Virus record (IMG/VR): IMGVR_UViG_3300044911_002711
Coordinates: 1-38,344 of that record
Source: a virus
Strand: one strand, 5' to 3'
Length of the DNA stretch: 38,344 bases
Of this stretch, positions 4,110 to 25,857 are shown in pieces (position 1 is the stretch's first letter; the number at the start of each line of letters is the position of its first letter). Position numbers and translations under genes: made by a program. Below the pieces are notes generated by a model. It was not told where the DNA came from, ran no database searches, and saw only the letters and a list, made by a program, of their open reading frames with translations.

Positions 4110-5156
4110 TCAGAAGATTCGGCGCCAGGGTTGGCCGGGGACGATGTGTGACCAGTGGGCGTAGGCGCGGCGGGAGGCATCTGCGATGACCACATCCCCA
4201 TCCTTATCCCCATCCATGGGCCCCGGCACCCGGTCATGGATCCACCCTTCGGACGTGGGGTAAGCGAGGTGGGCAGGGAGGGGTTGAGGGGTGTAAGGGG
4301 AGGGTTCGGTGGTAGGCGGCGCCCATGGTTGACCTGGGGTGACAACGTGCCACGAATTCCACCACCAGCCTCGCCCGCGCCCGTGAGGGACCTTCACACG
4401 ACCGTTCGCAGTCGCATCCTTTTCAGCCGGCAGCCTGCTCCTGATCCATCCGTCCCGATCAAGCGGATGCCCACCAGGGGCAGCTGCAGGGCCCTCCTGA
4501 CCCCCTTGCTCCCCCTCTGGCACGTCCTGGCCTTGACCCTCGCCCTGCAGCGCCCCCAAGCCGCTTGTGTGGCGCTCCTGCGATGTGCCCAGCGCCAGGG
4601 TGTCGGGATCGCCTGTGGGAGGCTCTTGGTGGGCTGTGGTGGGGGTGCTGGCGGGTTCCTCGACAAAGGACCAGTCGACAAAGGCGACGATCGGCGCCCA
4701 GCGATCGCCCGGATCGACTGCCCAGAAGTCCTTGGCGCGAAACTTGCGCCCGATAGGCAGGATGGCGAGCCGGCCGCCTTCGGGGACCTCGACGAAGCCT
4801 CTGGAAGAATTCACAAAGCTAGTCTGATCGCGGCGCCAGCCTCCCCAGGAGGCCACTGGATTGGCCAGCGGCGCGGGTTCCTCCGGCGCCGCGGCGGGGC
4901 TGGTGGCGGGCTGCGCCCCCTCAGCTCTGGTCCCGGCCTCCAGCGCGTTGGCGATCCGCTCCAGCGCCCCGAGGGCGTCCGCGATGCGGTTGAGGGGCTG
5001 GGCCTGGATCAGAGCGGCGAACACCTCGGGTTTCGACTCTGCGCAGCCGGCTGGGGAGTCGCTCCGGTAGATGCGGGCAAGGTTCATGGCCTGAGCAGCG
5101 ATCTGTGTGCTGGCGTGCAGGGCCCATGTCTCGGGGCAGGGCTTTGAGCTGTCCAT
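4110..5156 (-). CDS. Hypothetical protein with repeated WxxWHxVxPGQPW modules
   Basis: 348 residues from ATG 5156, chosen because longer frames run into the iteron region. The N-terminal half is helical with an Ala/Pro-rich linker (about 85-105). The rest holds three related modules: one with WGGWRRDQTSF and a DPGDRWAPIVAF ending, and two clearer ones ending WNSWHVVTPGQPW and YAHWSHIVPGQPW, each starting with GWI.SR/DR.P and carrying a D.D/N-G-.V segment. Between the first and the last two is a Gln/Gly/Pro-rich low-complexity linker. No known catalytic motif is recognised. The repeat suggests a small beta-rich binding domain. It lies upstream of terS on the same strand with a 58-nt gap. Confidence 0.7.
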   Translation of the reverse strand: MDSSKPCPETWALHASTQIAAQAMNLARIYRSDSPAGCAESKPEVFAALIQAQPLNRIADALGALERIANALEAGTRAEGAQPATSPAAAPEEPAPLANPVASWGGWRRDQTSFVNSSRGFVEVPEGGRLAILPIGRKFRAKDFWAVDPGDRWAPIVAFVDWSFVEEPASTPTTAHQEPPTGDPDTLALGTSQERHTSGLGALQGEGQGQDVPEGEQGGQEGPAAAPGGHPLDRDGWIRSRLPAEKDATANGRVKVPHGRGRGWWWNSWHVVTPGQPWAPPTTEPSPYTPQPLPAHLAYPTSEGWIHDRVPGPMDGDKDGDVVIADASRRAYAHWSHIVPGQPWRRIF

Positions 5157-5204
5157 CGGCGGGTGGTGTGTGGCTTCCGCATCGTAGCGCAGCCGATGGG
5201 GGCC

Positions 5205-5491
5205 TGTTCCGCCTGTTCCGCTCTGTTCCGGGGGCGGAACGCAAAGCGGAACGGGGTAAACCCCTTGCGGCAACTAGGCCGGCCCCTGTTTTGTTCCGTT
5301 GTTCCACCTAAAGACAGAAATACAGATACATACGCGCATGCGCGCACGCACGCACCCGCACATGCGCATGTAGGCCTCTCGCCTGGAAGGCGGAACAGGC
5401 GGAACAGCGGAACAAATCCAGTGTTTGCAAGGATTCTTGTGTTCCGCTTTGCGTTCCGCTGTTCCGTTTAGGGCCCCTTGGGGGCGTTCCG
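5205..5491. other. Iteron array with nested inverted repeats; candidate replication origin
   Basis: Non-coding interval holding 13 exact GTTCCG/CGGAAC hexamers and one GTTCCA in 287 bases. Two long perfect inverted repeats are nested: 17 bp (5205-5221 with 5390-5406) and 18 bp (5235-5252 with 5441-5458). A tract of alternating purine/pyrimidine (about 5328-5372) lies between the arms. It sits directly downstream of the primase-helicase gene and past its terminator, the expected setting for a phage origin or for a replication-protein binding site. Origin function is inferred from iterons plus context. Open frames crossing it are repeat-driven and not believed. Confidence 0.65.
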
Positions 5492-5520
5492 CTGGGCCCG
5501 GCGGCTGCCCTTGAGCGCAC

Positions 5521-5551
5521 AAAAAAGCGTGGCCGGAAATCCCAGCCACGC
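5521..5551 (-). terminator. Intrinsic terminator after primase-helicase
   Basis: On the minus strand a 7-bp stem (GCGTGGC/GCCACGC, arms 5545-5551 and 5527-5533) is followed by six T residues (5521-5526). It lies about 30 nt past the primase-helicase stop and insulates the iteron region from that transcript. Confidence 0.8.
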
Positions 5552-5581
5552 CCTCGCCACGCCCTGACCCACCCGATGGGT

Positions 5582-8290
5582 CTACTCAGCCCCCGCCAGT
5601 GGCAGCGATACGGCCCTGGAGCTGCCGCTCATCCCCTTGAACCGGACCTTGCCGGGTTTCTGGGCGCCGTGAATGCGGGCGAGCACTGTGGGCCAGCTGT
5701 GAGCCCAAGGAGTGTCCGCCAGGATCCGCTGAAGGCCGATGGCCGTGTTCGCCACCAGAAGCCGATCGTCCATCACCCGGAGCCCGATGCGCCCGAGGTG
5801 TGACTCCGCCACTTCCGCGGGGATGTCTGCAGCCTCACGGCCTGCTCTGGCTGCCTCGACCAATTCCCAGACGGTGCGGGTCAGAACCTTCGCAGTGCTT
5901 TGAACCCTGGCGCCGGTCAGCTCAATCCGCTCGGTTTCAACCCTTACCTGGTGCTGCAGGATGTACTGCAGGCATCTCTGCTCATCCGCCTCCTCCACTT
6001 CCCGATAGGTTTGCCAGTTGTTTGAGTCGATGAGTTGCAGTGCATCCTCGTGGGTTGCGGGTCTTCCGCTGGTTAGGGACCAGGCCCCCGCCAGTAAGGT
6101 GCCGTACTGATCACCATGCCTCTGGCTGTCAAATCGATCGCCTGCGGCACGCCTGAAGGCGGCAACGGATTCGCGAATCACGCTTATGGAGCGCACGGAG
6201 CGCAGGAGCAGCCTATGGCCAAGTTCTGGCGTGATAAGGTCCAGGTCGGCACTCAATGCCTGCCAGTGAGCTTGTCGCTCTTCACGAGGCAGGTGATTAG
6301 GTGAGCGCATGGTGAGCTGAGCGAATCGAGACTGGTCTGCGCCGTGCTTGAGGGCCGTGCTGATTGAGCACAACATAAACATCGAGCGCATGGTAAATTG
6401 CTGGGCATCGCCAGCGGCGCTACCCTTGCCGATCACGCCACGGCCGGAAGATGAGGCGCCGCGTGCTAAGGCTAAAATTGCCTGGATCCGGTGCTGATCT
6501 GCCTTTTCGTTGGATTCAGCTTCATCAAAGACCACTGGCCTGGCGTCAGCTCGAAGTTTTTGCCGGATGAATGCCTCCGTTGTTGCTCCCTCCGGCCAGA
6601 TTGCCAGCTCCGCCAGTAGGGGCCCGAGAAACCGATCGAGCAGGGTTGATTTCCCGGAGCCAGCCCCGGCCGTGAGCCAGGCATGAGGGCGCCAGCTGAG
6701 GGCCCCGCAGATAGGCGCGAGGGCTGTCCAGCCGGCAAGAAGGAGCCCGCTGGCGGGAACCTCCCAGTTGAAACGGCAGGCGATGTCGATGATTCGCATG
6801 CCCTCTTGATCCGTGAGGGGGGCTAAATCTGTATCAATATCGATGGATGCAGCACGTTGATAGCTGTATTTAGTGGCGGGGGGTTGCATGATGCTATGAA
6901 CAACTCCATCGGCGATGAGCCGATCACCAAGGTGTAGAATGCAGCGCCCGCCATCCAACCAGGCACCACGCCCGCGAACCTTGTCCGGGTCATAGATGCC
7001 AACCTGCGCCTGACGGCGAAAGAGCATAGAATAAGCACTCTGAAAATTCACGCCTGTCTTCCCTGGGAAAGCATTCATCCACCACGCTTCGCTAGCAAGT
7101 TGCAGGAGCGCTGTTGACGTGTGCCCTTTGCCAGTGAACCGGAGCACTTGTCCAGTTTCGTTGGGCTGATAAAAGTAATTGTCACCATCGAATCCCAAGC
7201 AAACAAAAGGCAAGTTACCAGGGTCTGGTATGTCGGATGGCGGAGCGGGGGGAGGCCCACCAGGGGGAGGCTCCGGCTCTGGTGGGAGGATCGCCTTGAG
7301 GTTCTGCTGCAGCAGCTCCGCCACCTGCTGGCCGTTCATCCCCTGCGACCTGGCGTCGCCAAGGTCCCAGCCTGTCGGCAGGTTGGCCGGGGGGTGGAAG
7401 GCTGTGAGGGTGCAGCCGAGCGCAAGGAGTCGGCCGGCGATTTTCGCCATAGCCTGCCGGCCCTGCTCGTCCGCGTCAGGCCAGAGCACAACAGCTCGGC
7501 CCTGCAGTGGCGCCCAGTCGACGTGCCCGATACCGCCGGTGCCTCCGTACCAGCAGGCGGCAACGTGATCGGGGAACAGCGCGGCAGCTGCATTGGCTGA
7601 CGGCTCACCCTCGACTAGGAGCACCGGTGCGTCGGGCCGTTCGAGCAGGTCCGGCAGGCGGTAGAGGGGCCTAGGGCTAGGCCACTCGGAGCTGAATGGA
7701 TCAGCGTTCGGCCCGCGGGAACGGGGGTAGTGCCAGCGGCCATCGAGCCAGGTCCTGTGGATCAGGGTTTTTCCGGGTTTGGCGCCGGGGGTCTTGGGCG
7801 GCAGGGGAATGCGCTGCACCCAGAACCAGGGGTTTGCGCGATCGGGCCCGTAGGGGTACTGCTCAGTGGCGCTGCCCAGCGCTGGCGGTGGTGTGCCCGG
7901 CGGCGGGATGTCGGGTATGCGGTGCGGCCTGGCCTTGCGCTTGGGCTGAGCAGCTGCGGGCGGAGCTGGTGCGGCGGTGCCAAGCCAGCCATCGACGTGG
8001 CGTAGTGCTGTTGCGGTGTCCCAGCCGCGAAGTCGCTGGAGGAGATCGAGGCCCGAGCCGCCGCCTCCGGTGCGGGTGATGCCGCCGCAGTGACTGCAGT
8101 GCCAGCCGCCGCTGACGGTGTCCTTCTTGTAATCCCAGCGAAACCGCGTTGTGCCCGCGTCACCGGTGAGCACGAGACACGACGGGCAGGGGCCTTCCCT
8201 GTCGCACAGCTGATCCTGTGTGATGCCCCCCAGGGCACAGAGGATCTCCTCCCACCGACCGGCGGCGGCCTGGAGCGTCGGGGATGGCAT
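5582..8290 (-). CDS. Bifunctional primase-helicase (zinc finger, TOPRIM, P-loop ATPase)
   Basis: 902-residue replication protein. Order of domains: a zinc-binding pair (CPSC at 35-38, CSHC at 65-68); a TOPRIM domain with LLVEGEPSA (about 224-232, catalytic Glu) and WPDADE (about 270-275); a Pro-rich linker (about 335-355); and a C-terminal ATPase with Walker A TAGAGSGKST (about 540-549) and Walker B PVVFDEAE (about 585-592). TOPRIM plus zinc finger indicates DnaG-like primase activity and the ATPase is the likely replicative helicase. The ATG overlaps the stop of the upstream RHH gene (TGATG), so the two are co-translated. The adjacent iteron region is the probable template. The helicase part is not an obvious DnaB; it looks more like the ATPase of large phage/plasmid primase proteins. 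Confidence 0.88.
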   Translation of the reverse strand: MPSPTLQAAAGRWEEILCALGGITQDQLCDREGPCPSCLVLTGDAGTTRFRWDYKKDTVSGGWHCSHCGGITRTGGGGSGLDLLQRLRGWDTATALRHVDGWLGTAAPAPPAAAQPKRKARPHRIPDIPPPGTPPPALGSATEQYPYGPDRANPWFWVQRIPLPPKTPGAKPGKTLIHRTWLDGRWHYPRSRGPNADPFSSEWPSPRPLYRLPDLLERPDAPVLLVEGEPSANAAAALFPDHVAACWYGGTGGIGHVDWAPLQGRAVVLWPDADEQGRQAMAKIAGRLLALGCTLTAFHPPANLPTGWDLGDARSQGMNGQQVAELLQQNLKAILPPEPEPPPGGPPPAPPSDIPDPGNLPFVCLGFDGDNYFYQPNETGQVLRFTGKGHTSTALLQLASEAWWMNAFPGKTGVNFQSAYSMLFRRQAQVGIYDPDKVRGRGAWLDGGRCILHLGDRLIADGVVHSIMQPPATKYSYQRAASIDIDTDLAPLTDQEGMRIIDIACRFNWEVPASGLLLAGWTALAPICGALSWRPHAWLTAGAGSGKSTLLDRFLGPLLAELAIWPEGATTEAFIRQKLRADARPVVFDEAESNEKADQHRIQAILALARGASSSGRGVIGKGSAAGDAQQFTMRSMFMLCSISTALKHGADQSRFAQLTMRSPNHLPREERQAHWQALSADLDLITPELGHRLLLRSVRSISVIRESVAAFRRAAGDRFDSQRHGDQYGTLLAGAWSLTSGRPATHEDALQLIDSNNWQTYREVEEADEQRCLQYILQHQVRVETERIELTGARVQSTAKVLTRTVWELVEAARAGREAADIPAEVAESHLGRIGLRVMDDRLLVANTAIGLQRILADTPWAHSWPTVLARIHGAQKPGKVRFKGMSGSSRAVSLPLAGAE

Positions 8291-17647: not shown

Positions 17648-17851
17648 ATGCCGATCGTTTTCCCTGCCGAACTGCCCGAGCTGGTTCATCTCAATGAGAA
17701 AATAAGCAGCGCCAAAGACGCGTGCGCCGCCTTGTCGAATGAAGAGTTCTCTGAGCGACTGTCCGCACTGGTCATTGCATTGCGCAGAGAAAATCGTTTC
17801 GCTGACGCTGCCCTGGTAGATCGTGCGGCGGGGCTTGTCGATGTTTTCTAA
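17648..17851 (+). CDS. Small helical protein upstream of the FGE array
   Basis: 67 residues from ATG 17648. Two helices: LPELVHLNEKISSAKDACAAL and NEEFSERLSALVIALRRENRFADAALVDRAAGL. No family recognised; it does not look like the Avd accessory protein of DGRs by eye. Its last codons overlap the array ORF start at 17841 by 11 nt. Confidence 0.7.
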   Translation: MPIVFPAELPELVHLNEKISSAKDACAALSNEEFSERLSALVIALRRENRFADAALVDRAAGLVDVF

Positions 17852-18866
17852 GGAACGCCTGCTGCGCGGTGGCTCCTGCTTTAGCAGTCCCCAGGGCTGC
17901 CGCTCGGCCCGCCGTCTCAGCTACCACCCCGCCTTTGCCTTCAACTACGGCATCGGCTTCCGTGTTGTCCGCCTCCCCCAGCTCACCCTTGGTATCATGG
18001 CTCGAATTTTCCGCATATTGCGCGGCGGCTCCTGGCGCAGCCTCCCGGTGTACTGCCGCTCGGCCTACCGCCTCAACCTCCCCCCCGCCGGTGCCAACCA
18101 CGGCATCGGCTTCCGTGTGTGTTGCCTCTCCCATCCCACCCTTGGTATCATGTCTCGAATTTCCCGAGTTCTGCGCGGCGGCTCCTGGTTCAACGATCCT
18201 CAGATCTGCCGCTCGGCCTACCGGTTCAGGAGGCACCCGGCCCTCTCCTGCTGCGACGTTGGGTTCCGCCTCACCTCCCGGAACCCCCCCGCCACCGATA
18301 TTGTGATGGTGAAAATCCCAACCGGTAGCTTCTTGATGGGCTCACCCACCAGCGAGGAAAGCCACTTCGCCAGCGAATCACCTCAACACAAGGTAACTCT
18401 AGAAACCTTCTGGATGAGCCAATCCCCCATCACCCAGGCGCAATGGGTGAGTGTCATGGGAGACAACCCCTCCCACTTCAAGGGCGAAGACCTCCCTGTA
18501 GAGTGCGTAAGTTGGCATGACGCCATGAAATTCTGCCAGCGGCTGAGCGAGCAAACCGGCGACACCTACACCTTGCCCAGTGAGGCTCAATGGGAGTATG
18601 CCTGCCGAGCTGGCACTACCACGCCGTTTCACTTTGGCAAAACCATAACCCCAGATCAAGCTAATTACGATGGGAATTACACCTATAACGGTGGCCCCCG
18701 CGGCGAATATCGCCAGCAGACCACACCGGTAGGAATATTCCCGCCCAATGACTGGGGGTTGTACGACATGCACGGCAACGTATGGGAATGGTGCCTAGAT
18801 CAATGGCACCCGAACTACGAGGGAGCCCCTGTTGATGGCAGCGCATGGGAGGGTGGTGATGAGTGA
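17841..18866 (+). CDS. Tandem FGE variable-region-like modules fused to a truncated FGE domain
   Basis: 341 residues from ATG 17841 (an upstream GTG at 17823 is possible). The first 145 residues are three copies of a segment RGGSW/C-x(6-7)-CRSA-x-R-x(n)-GFR, each followed by a linker; the first two linkers end in LGIM. This segment is normally the C-terminal end of formylglycine-generating-enzyme (FGE) domains, the part diversified by diversity-generating retroelements. From about residue 156 an FGE N-terminal core follows (MVKIPTGSFLMGSP, LPVECVSWHDAMKFCQRL, YTLPSEAQWEYACRAG, GLYDMHGNVWEWCLD) but stops at WEGGDE, just where the RGGSW segment should begin. The order is therefore permuted. Internal ATGs (17998, 18151, 18306) could also give separate small proteins. 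Its end overlaps the next gene by 8 nt. Confidence 0.8.
   Translation: MFSKERLLRGGSCFSSPQGCRSARRLSYHPAFAFNYGIGFRVVRLPQLTLGIMARIFRILRGGSWRSLPVYCRSAYRLNLPPAGANHGIGFRVCCLSHPTLGIMSRISRVLRGGSWFNDPQICRSAYRFRRHPALSCCDVGFRLTSRNPPATDIVMVKIPTGSFLMGSPTSEESHFASESPQHKVTLETFWMSQSPITQAQWVSVMGDNPSHFKGEDLPVECVSWHDAMKFCQRLSEQTGDTYTLPSEAQWEYACRAGTTTPFHFGKTITPDQANYDGNYTYNGGPRGEYRQQTTPVGIFPPNDWGLYDMHGNVWEWCLDQWHPNYEGAPVDGSAWEGGDE
17865..17963 (+). repeat. Variable-region-like unit 1
   Basis: Encodes RGGS to GFR with SCFSSPQG, then CRSAR, as variable content; one residue longer than units 2 and 3. Shares the 12-nt TGCCGCTCGGCC core with both. Confidence 0.75.
18021..18116 (+). repeat. Variable-region-like unit 2
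   Basis: 156 bp after unit 1. Many differing codons end in C (CGC, CTC, TAC, AAC, CAC). Preceded by the shared linker CTTGGTATCATG-CTCGAATTT. Confidence 0.75.
18174..18269 (+). repeat. Variable-region-like unit 3
   Basis: 153 bp after unit 2, with variable residues FND, QI, RFRRH and LSCCD. Followed by a short linker and then the FGE core. Confidence 0.75.
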
Positions 18867-23616: not shown

Positions 23617-24222
23617 ATGCTAAAAAACGACCGCTGGATCCGCCAACAAGCCGCCGCCGGCATGATCGATCCGTTTGAGCCGTGGCTGGCGCGGCAGCTG
23701 CTGACCAGCGATGACCGGGGACTCCGCACCCTCCCCGTCCTCAGTTTCGGCACCTCCTCCTACGGCTACGATCTGCGCCTTTCGGCCCGGGAGTTCCTGA
23801 TCTTCCGCCATGTGCCCGGCACGGTGATGAACCCGAAGCGGTTCAACCCCGCCAACCTGGAGCCGGCGCCGCTGCACCAGGACGAGGACGGGCGCTACTT
23901 CATCCTGCCGGCCCACTCCTATGGCCTCGGGGTGGCGCTGGAGCGGCTGCGGGTGCCGCCGAACATCACTGTGATCTGCCTGGGTAAGAGCACCTACGCC
24001 CGGCTTGGCATCATCGTCAACACCACGCCAGCGGAGGCCGGGTGGGAGGGGCATCTCACCCTGGAATTCAGCAATTCCAGCGGTGCCGACTGCCGGATCT
24101 ACGCGGAGGAGGGCATCTGCCAGCTGCTGTTCTTCGAGGGGGAGCCGTGCGAGACCACCTACCGGGATCGGGCGGGGAAGTATCAGGATCAGCCCGAGCG
24201 GGTCGTGGGGGCGAGGGTGTGA
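23617..24222 (+). CDS. dcd: dCTP deaminase
   Basis: 201 residues of the dUTPase/dCTP-deaminase fold. Key segments: SFGTSSYGYDLRLS (about 43-56), LGKSTYARLGIIVNTTPAEAGWEGHLTLEFSNSS (about 122-155, with the catalytic Glu in LTLEFSN) and the C-terminal phosphate loop region with GKYQDQ. Converts dCTP to dUTP, the precursor of the dUMP used by ThyX at 25102. A bifunctional dCTP deaminase/dUTPase cannot be excluded. Starts 3 nt after the previous stop. Confidence 0.93.
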   Translation: MLKNDRWIRQQAAAGMIDPFEPWLARQLLTSDDRGLRTLPVLSFGTSSYGYDLRLSAREFLIFRHVPGTVMNPKRFNPANLEPAPLHQDEDGRYFILPAHSYGLGVALERLRVPPNITVICLGKSTYARLGIIVNTTPAEAGWEGHLTLEFSNSSGADCRIYAEEGICQLLFFEGEPCETTYRDRAGKYQDQPERVVGARV

Positions 24223-24838: not shown

Positions 24839-25128
24839 CCACCCCCAAAGCCACGCCAGATCCATCCACGACCCCGGCTGACCCCATCGCCCACTGCCCC
24901 GGTTGGGGTGACGGCCCCGATGACTGGCTGGAGGAGTGCCAGGATTGCCAGCGACGAACCGCGCCGGCAGGGGAGGGAGGCAGCGACCTGCCGCCGCCAA
25001 TTATCGCGCTGTTCTGTGAGGCGTACATCCCACCAGATCGCCCCGAGGATCGGCGGCTGAGGGAGCTGGCCCGTGCCTACGCGCACGGGCCGCGCGTCTC
25101 CCTACGGCGCCAGCCGGGCCCGGTGTAG
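24835..25128 (+). CDS. Small Cys-containing protein 4, end of plus operon
   Basis: 97 residues with CPGWGDGP and CQDCQRR; Pro-rich N-terminus and basic C-terminus. Its last 27 nt overlap the 3' end of the convergent thyX gene. Confidence 0.6.
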   Translation: MTTPKATPDPSTTPADPIAHCPGWGDGPDDWLEECQDCQRRTAPAGEGGSDLPPPIIALFCEAYIPPDRPEDRRLRELARAYAHGPRVSLRRQPGPV

Positions 25129-25827
25129 GCGGCTTTTCTCGTACCAGGCGGCGATCTCTGGCGCCCACACCTGCAGGCGGGGCCAGATCAGCTCACACAG
25201 CCAGCGGATTTCCTGCTGCGCGTCCAACTTGGCCCGCAGGTCAAGGAAGTGCAGCAGGGCCCGCAGGGTGAAGCTCACCACGAAATGCTGCCGGTAGTCG
25301 AAGGGGAGGATGCCGCGGGCGTGTTCTTCGGAGAAGCCAGCGGCCACCAGGTCGCGGTAGCGCTCGGCAGCGGCGCGGCAGAGCTCTCGATCGATCCCCC
25401 GCTGGTTCTGGCCGTAGCGGTACTTTTTGCCCTGGCGGTCGCTGTAGTCGCCAACCGGCCGCAAGTAAAATACCTCCTCTAAATCAATTTGCCCCGTCGC
25501 AGCACGGCAAATGCGCTCACCCGTGTAACGCATCGACTGCACGTCAAACGAAACCCCCACCCGGTGGGTGCGGGCCTGTTGCATCACGGAATGAGGGAAC
25601 CAGCCCACATTCAGTACGATCTGGGCATGCTCTAGCGGGCCGTAATGGCCCCGTTCGCCAGCCAGCAGGCGTTTGATGCAGATCTCACCAGCTATCTTCT
25701 CATTGGGCCAGTCGCCTCGATCGTCAGCGACAAAGCCCTCGCTGTAGTCCTGGTGCATGGCCGCGTAGATGCACTGCTGCGGGTTGGGGGTGGCTGTGAT
25801 GAGTGCCACCCGAAAGCGTGGGTCCAT
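25102..25827 (-). CDS. thyX: Flavin-dependent thymidylate synthase
   Basis: 241 residues from ATG 25827; an earlier ATG at 25854 is in frame but lies within the probable terminator/promoter. The ThyX signature reads RTHRVGVSFDVQSMRYT (about 86-102), the variant common in cyanobacteria and their phages, and HYGPLEHAQIVLNV (about 61-74) precedes it. Makes dTMP from dUMP with FAD, NADPH and methylene-THF. Works with the dCTP deaminase on the opposite strand. It is the 3'-most gene of the minus strand block and shares its 3' end with the plus operon. Confidence 0.95.
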   Translation of the reverse strand: MDPRFRVALITATPNPQQCIYAAMHQDYSEGFVADDRGDWPNEKIAGEICIKRLLAGERGHYGPLEHAQIVLNVGWFPHSVMQQARTHRVGVSFDVQSMRYTGERICRAATGQIDLEEVFYLRPVGDYSDRQGKKYRYGQNQRGIDRELCRAAAERYRDLVAAGFSEEHARGILPFDYRQHFVVSFTLRALLHFLDLRAKLDAQQEIRWLCELIWPRLQVWAPEIAAWYEKSRLHRARLAP

Positions 25828-25857
25828 TGGCGTGGTGGAAGAATGTGCTATCATGGC

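Follow-up and report, generated by a model that had tools for sequence, protein, structure and literature searches.

SaPI origins carry iteron sets beside an AT-rich stretch, and the alpha protein of satellite phage P4 reads short repeats at its origin. In the SaPI system, the C-terminal domain of Rep recognises iterons located directly downstream of its own gene (PMC7581432), an arrangement described as a rep-ori for SaPIbov1 (Ubeda et al. 2007, as described in PMC7581432). Likewise, in SCCmec the C-terminal domain of Cch2 binds direct repeats downstream of its gene, three AAGTG iterons (PMC7581432), and P4 alpha is a primase-helicase fusion (PMC7145576). Geminiviruses, whose Rep-iteron pairs involve an iteron-related domain (Arguello-Astorga and Ruiz-Medrano 2001, as cited in PMC12548392), provide a precedent in which iterons switch jointly with residues of the initiator. 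Here we describe a viral locus, positions 5205-5491, which is very probably a replication origin forming one module with the adjacent primase-helicase gene, in the manner of a SaPI rep-ori, with the C-terminal domain of the protein as the predicted binder of the iterons.

The window, which is the whole stretch of DNA that was analysed, comprises all 38,344 bases of the virus record IMGVR_UViG_3300044911_002711. It contains 31 copies of GTTCCG/CGGAAC, 13 of which are exact matches at 5206-5491, in agreement with the first-pass annotation, which had listed 13 hexamers within 287 bases. The rest of the contig predicts only 0.136 copies there (Poisson p ~7e-22). This is the single cluster of the hexamer in the contig, and its density is unmatched by any other hexamer in any other interval; a near-copy, GTTCCA, lies within the array at 5301-5306. 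The spacer in the middle (5307-5390) has a GC content of 0.40 vs 0.64 nearby and includes an alternating purine/pyrimidine tract of 30 bases, unusual for the contig. The window has, in other words, the multiple short repeats beside a candidate AT-rich unwinding region that characterise iteron-type origins. GC skew did not single out 5205-5491 and was uninformative as an origin signal in the window, and Rfam and tRNA searches of it gave no match. The features of the locus are listed in Table 1.

Table 1. Features of the candidate origin and of the adjoining primase-helicase gene
Feature	Position	Strand	Basis
Iteron set E, three copies (5206, 5215, 5225), 9-10 bp apart	5206..5230	+	exact matches; plan in relatives
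Iteron set D (5235, 5247)	5235..5252	-, opposite orientation	exact matches; recurring plan
Iteron set C, pair (5293 GTTCCG, 5301 GTTCCA), 8 bp apart	5293..5306	+	recurrence of the pair and of the 45 bp to set D with different words
Spacer, proposed unwinding region	5307..5390		AT-rich 5307-5333 and alternating purine/pyrimidine tract ~5329-5372
Iteron set B, three copies (5391, 5400, 5408)	5391..5413	-, opposite orientation	A-to-B distance of 32-33 bp kept in relatives
Iteron set A, three copies (5441, 5453, 5461)	5441..5466	+	exact matches; plan in relatives
Iteron, outermost of set A (GTTCCG)	5486..5491	+	exact match; GTTCCA in L004
Predicted terminator hairpin after primase gene	5520..5555 (about)	-	-24 kcal/mol, z -4.8, then six T
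Primase-helicase gene, 902 aa, proposed initiator	5582..8290	-	PHROG DNA primase match, E=3e-126
C-terminal domain, residues 765-902, proposed iteron reader	5585..5998	-	differences between word-switched relatives concentrate there
Arg883 codon	5642-5644	-	top-ranked column for word position 6
Lys881 codon	5648-5650	-	top-ranked column for word position 3

Two exact inverted repeats had been noted in the array with lengths of 17 and 18 bp; both exist, and their lengths are 19 bp (5234-5252 / 5441-5459) and 18 bp (5204-5221 / 5390-5407). They had also been described as nested, with a symmetry well beyond that of ordinary iteron arrays and the capacity to extrude a large cruciform. The arms, however, follow the order 5204 < 5234 < 5390 < 5441, so that the two repeats interleave and therefore cannot both occupy one cruciform; only an imperfect third pair (5290-5309 / 5397-5416, 90%) nests within the 19-bp pair, around the alternating tract. 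The symmetry also decays in relatives, where the longest such perfect repeat is 13 bp in the virus with a 97% identical primase (L004) and 9-10 bp in others. In L004 the array is kept, and the few changes break the pairing while mostly sparing the iterons. A functional cruciform is thus next to impossible: perfect arms of 19 and 18 bp are present in the window, but they cross, would enclose loops of 168-188 nt and are lost even in the nearest relative, and we dropped it together with the nesting. The perfect arms are a by-product of the oppositely oriented iteron sets.

The region is free of genes and adjoins the primase-helicase, as first annotated: no plausible gene is encoded in the 425 bp that separate the primase stop (5582) from the neighbouring gene, whose first in-frame ATG is at 5156. 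The claim that it is insulated by terminators holds on the primase side, where the strong hairpin at ~5520-5555 is a predicted terminator of the primase transcript; on the far side of the array no terminator was found. Since the array lies between this terminator and the start of an operon to the left (the gene at 4110-5156 with terminase-like, methyltransferase and lysozyme genes), where a promoter would be expected, it could serve as an operator or promoter at which a repressor or activator bound to the hexamers controls that operon. We consider this improbable, because a promoter scan found no sigma-70-like promoter, the array remains beside the primase even where a different gene comes next (as in L131 and L026, whose genes there differ from those of the window) and the hexamer covaries with the C-terminus of the primase, as described below. 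Among 78 representatives, no downstream gene family is common to more than 24. A small protein with the look of a ribbon-helix-helix protein (MKEIKVRFTPADLAVLDHHAALAGISRSELIR...) is encoded after the array, ~290 bp from the primase stop, in 12 of the 78 (L187, L192, L194, L196, L198, L199, L201, L203, L204, L207, L208 and L218). Such a protein had been suggested as a possible hexamer binder, a role that this limited occurrence and its absence from that position in the window do not support.

In the primase-helicase, a TOPRIM primase is joined to an MCM-like AAA+ helicase, which is followed by a C-terminal domain; the N-terminal part is a zinc-ribbon/TOPRIM region. In the predicted model, residues 127-338 have the TOPRIM RNA-polymerase-domain fold of DnaG-type primases (DnaG 4edg: Z 15.0, rmsd 3.2, 178 aligned). 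Residues 352-902 include a Cch-type, MCM-like AAA+ helicase and align best with SCCmec Cch 5dgk_B (Z 13.7, 435 aligned), a likeness that holds by parts only because the rmsd is 8.5. Foldseek also lists PriRep1 and SaPIBov1 Rep. There was no Pfam match to DUF927 (PF06048) at E 0.01, and for that reason we do not file the protein under this family. The C-terminal domain is modelled with a pLDDT of 91; when isolated it matched no solved structure below E 0.6, and to our eye its helix-helix-strand-strand order resembles a winged helix. The nearest named phage relative of the primase-helicase is that of Synechococcus phage S-H1 (48%) and the chromosomal homologues occur mostly in Cyanobium, Synechococcus and Vulcanococcus, on which grounds the window most likely represents a freshwater picocyanobacterial phage.

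According to the first-pass annotation, the candidate origin would be called into question if homologous phages lacked the array. About 150 primase homologues were compared, with eighty further homologues fetched beyond the first relatives, and most have an array in the same place, after the primase-helicase stop, regardless of the next gene. The array-bearing homologues belong to freshwater picocyanobacterial and proteobacterial phages and prophages. In L131 (63% primase identity) and L026 the array is kept and the alternating tract is replaced by other sequence. Among the better-resolved further homologues, nearly all carry an array directly 3' of the primase stop with a different hexamer, and arrays also lie 3' of many homologues whose identity is 29-43%. 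In 53 of 83 loci the most-repeated 7-mer of the 450 bp that follow the primase stop outnumbers that of every other 450-bp interval of the same locus; 12 loci are ties. An iteron array directly downstream of an initiator-helicase gene, as in SaPI and SCC elements, is thus found in the window and in most of its relatives, and the proposal of a phage origin beside the primase-helicase is strongly supported by this and by the way the hexamer tracks the C-terminal domain.

The array is weak in L193, L226, L228 and L230, and L139, whose primase is the nearest (72%) after the 97% one, has no array in the region downstream of it (L139 3324-4200); its origin is therefore elsewhere or lost. DNA-level searches of annotated phages and plasmids gave no real match, and a raw scan of viral contigs for GTTCCG triplets returned mostly coding repeats and few true relatives, such as L026. 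L132 and L134 were rejected as relatives, the 17-mer they have in common being due to chance only.

The repeated hexamers, or words, fit the form CG[G/T]NA[C/G] with few outliers. Those ending in AC are CGGAAC, CGGGAC, CGGTAC, CGTAAC, CGTTAC, CGT[TC]AC and CGTGAC, those ending in AG are CGTTAG, CGTGAG and CGT[AC]AG (including CGTAAG), and the outliers are GTAGAC and TCTAAC, joined later by CGATAC and CGCAAC. The arrangement of the copies follows a fixed plan. From the primase end, a forward set A is followed after 32-33 bp by an inverted set B, a spacer of ~90 bp, a forward pair C with copies 8 bp apart, a further 45 bp, an inverted set D and, 11 bp on, the forward copies of set E, 9-11 bp apart. 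The C-D-E part is present in 43 of the 78 representatives across nine word classes, compared with a mean of 1.1 and a maximum of 5 for shuffled positions. In 43/43 plan loci, set C is preceded by 30 bp of AT-rich sequence (0.67 vs 0.43), and in 37 of the 43 the spacer is of low complexity, with an unusually long alternating or one-sided purine/pyrimidine run; the alternating tract of the window is thus one form of a spacer that is generally biased to simple, readily distorted DNA. Spacers in L188, L189, L204 and L170 have long CT, CA or GA dinucleotide runs, which are not alternating purine/pyrimidine. Two inverted half-sites with a common core between the iterons were significant in 12 of 43 loci and not significant in the window, for which reason we do not claim this feature.

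Close relatives with different words differ in the protein mainly in the last ~100 residues. A column-by-column test was performed on 73 representatives, leaving out the GTAGAC and TCTAAC loci and L205, whose array is weak. Residue 883 ranked first of all columns for word position 6, being Arg with words ending in AC (61/61) and Trp, Tyr or His with words ending in AG (12/12), and residue 881 ranked first for position 3, being Lys in 7/7 loci with CGG words and in 0/66 otherwise. No mismatched pair of word and domain occurred among the 73. On a tree of residues 1-770, the word changed six times at each of positions 3 and 6, and the residue followed in 6/6 (position 3) and 5/5 (position 6) supported pairs. 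On a tree of the C-terminal domain without residues 881 and 883, it changed only once at position 3 and three times at position 6. From these few changes we conclude that array and C-terminal domain travel as one cassette, and the trees show that related phages switch words by swapping the 3' end of the gene along with the origin. For the same reason, the covariation at the residues could be due in part to neighbouring DNA that hitchhikes. The joint movement supports the two working together; linkage remains a confounder, above all at residue 881.

Taken to its extreme, this concern would make the covariation of the word with residues 881 and 883 a matter of linkage only, with recombination moving the 3' end and the array together and another protein binding the array. 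The few word changes on the C-terminal tree and the proximity of the residue and array sites in the DNA are what it predicts; it is nevertheless unlikely, as just 881 and 883 are perfect among all the linked C-terminal columns, mismatched pairs are lacking in the 73 representatives and the rule extends to distant lineages and fresh loci. An out-of-sample set of 61 fresh viral loci was collected with a proteobacterial query, and the 43 with a clear word followed the rule at residue 883 in 36/36 (AC) and 7/7 (AG) cases (Fisher p 1e-5 after 95% dereplication). Distant proteobacterial homologues also follow the rule, with exceptions: those with AG words (L267, L274) have Tyr at 883 and those with GG-type words (L272, L281, L287) have Lys881, whereas L283 (Ser883, Lys881) and L271 (Trp883) depart from the code. 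The distant lineages lessen the concern about hitchhiking. Recognition of the hexamer by the C-terminal domain is what this covariation and linkage point to, probably through direct contact, and across some 100 related viruses the two C-terminal residues suggest how the protein reads its origin.

Because SaPI and SCC initiators have an origin directly downstream that is read by their C-terminal domain, we infer a similar course of initiation here. The C-terminal domain of the primase-helicase would bind both iteron groups, A/B on one side and C/D/E on the other, which in opposite orientations flank the AT-rich low-complexity spacer. Two oppositely facing helicase rings may then be loaded, one at each side of the spacer, which would melt, and the TOPRIM domain would lay the primers, so that bidirectional synthesis could start with the protein's own primase.

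Iteron sets can also serve as control sites, as in iteron plasmids. The array might accordingly titrate the primase-helicase, as a locus for incompatibility or copy control, with initiation taking place elsewhere, and the same covariation of word and residues would be expected. This is very improbable, since the contig has only one cluster of the hexamer and the array contains an AT-rich low-complexity region, as an initiation site would. Beyond the origin itself, we propose with moderate confidence that the origin and the C-terminal domain together make up a specificity cassette that can be exchanged and whose code consists of two residues (881 for base 3, 883 for base 6), and that origins have switched repeatedly within the phages of one host group as an escape from cross-recognition. 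Words switch often among close relatives, which points to selection against such cross-recognition, whether by superinfecting phages, satellites or host defence.

In its predicted workings, the array with its primase-helicase is of the SaPI/SCC rep-ori kind, and the predicted fold is alike by structure comparison. It shares with the SaPI rep-ori an iteron origin directly downstream of the initiator-helicase gene, AT-rich DNA adjoining the iteron sets and, judging from the covariation, a C-terminal domain as origin reader. Unlike in SaPI, the primase fused to the helicase is a DnaG-like TOPRIM one and not of the AEP type, the words make up a series, CG[G/T]NA[C/G], that can be read at two residues, DUF927 is not matched at E 0.01, and the carriers are cyanobacterial and proteobacterial phages from fresh water, not staphylococcal islands. 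The structural alignment to SCCmec Cch corresponds to ~12% identity, and where Cch2 has its three AAGTG iterons, the present array has ~14 hexamers in five oriented sets. P4 alpha, also a primase-helicase fusion reading short repeats, is likened by description. Geminiviruses, as portrayed in the citing source, likewise have iterons of 5-6 nt that switch between close relatives in step with initiator residues; their Rep is an unrelated rolling-circle HUH protein of ssDNA plant viruses with an N-terminal reader. In the open-access literature we found neither this origin family nor the two-residue code described. A predicted origin can be read from sequence for a large group of phages and prophages, cyanobacterial and proteobacterial and from fresh water, that has received little study. 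The code adds a specific rule, open to refutation, by which a self-loading initiator helicase would distinguish its own origin from that of a neighbour.

In 16 loci a protein annotated in S-H1 as DNA polymerase III beta subunit (sliding clamp) is encoded near the array, for example at L005 18187-19236. The window also encodes a protein matching a PHROG annotated as kinase (17823-18866, E 7e-88), and its thymidylate synthase-like (25102-25854) and dCTP deaminase/dUTPase-like (23617-24222) genes indicate that the phage carries nucleotide-pool enzymes. Homologous primase-origin modules are present on large chromosomal contigs (L219-L240 and L265) of Cyanobium, Synechococcus and Vulcanococcus genomes, with up to three modules per genome (NZ_JAGQBW010000017, -08, -06), and therefore several related prophages with CGT[TC]AC-type words reside in one host.
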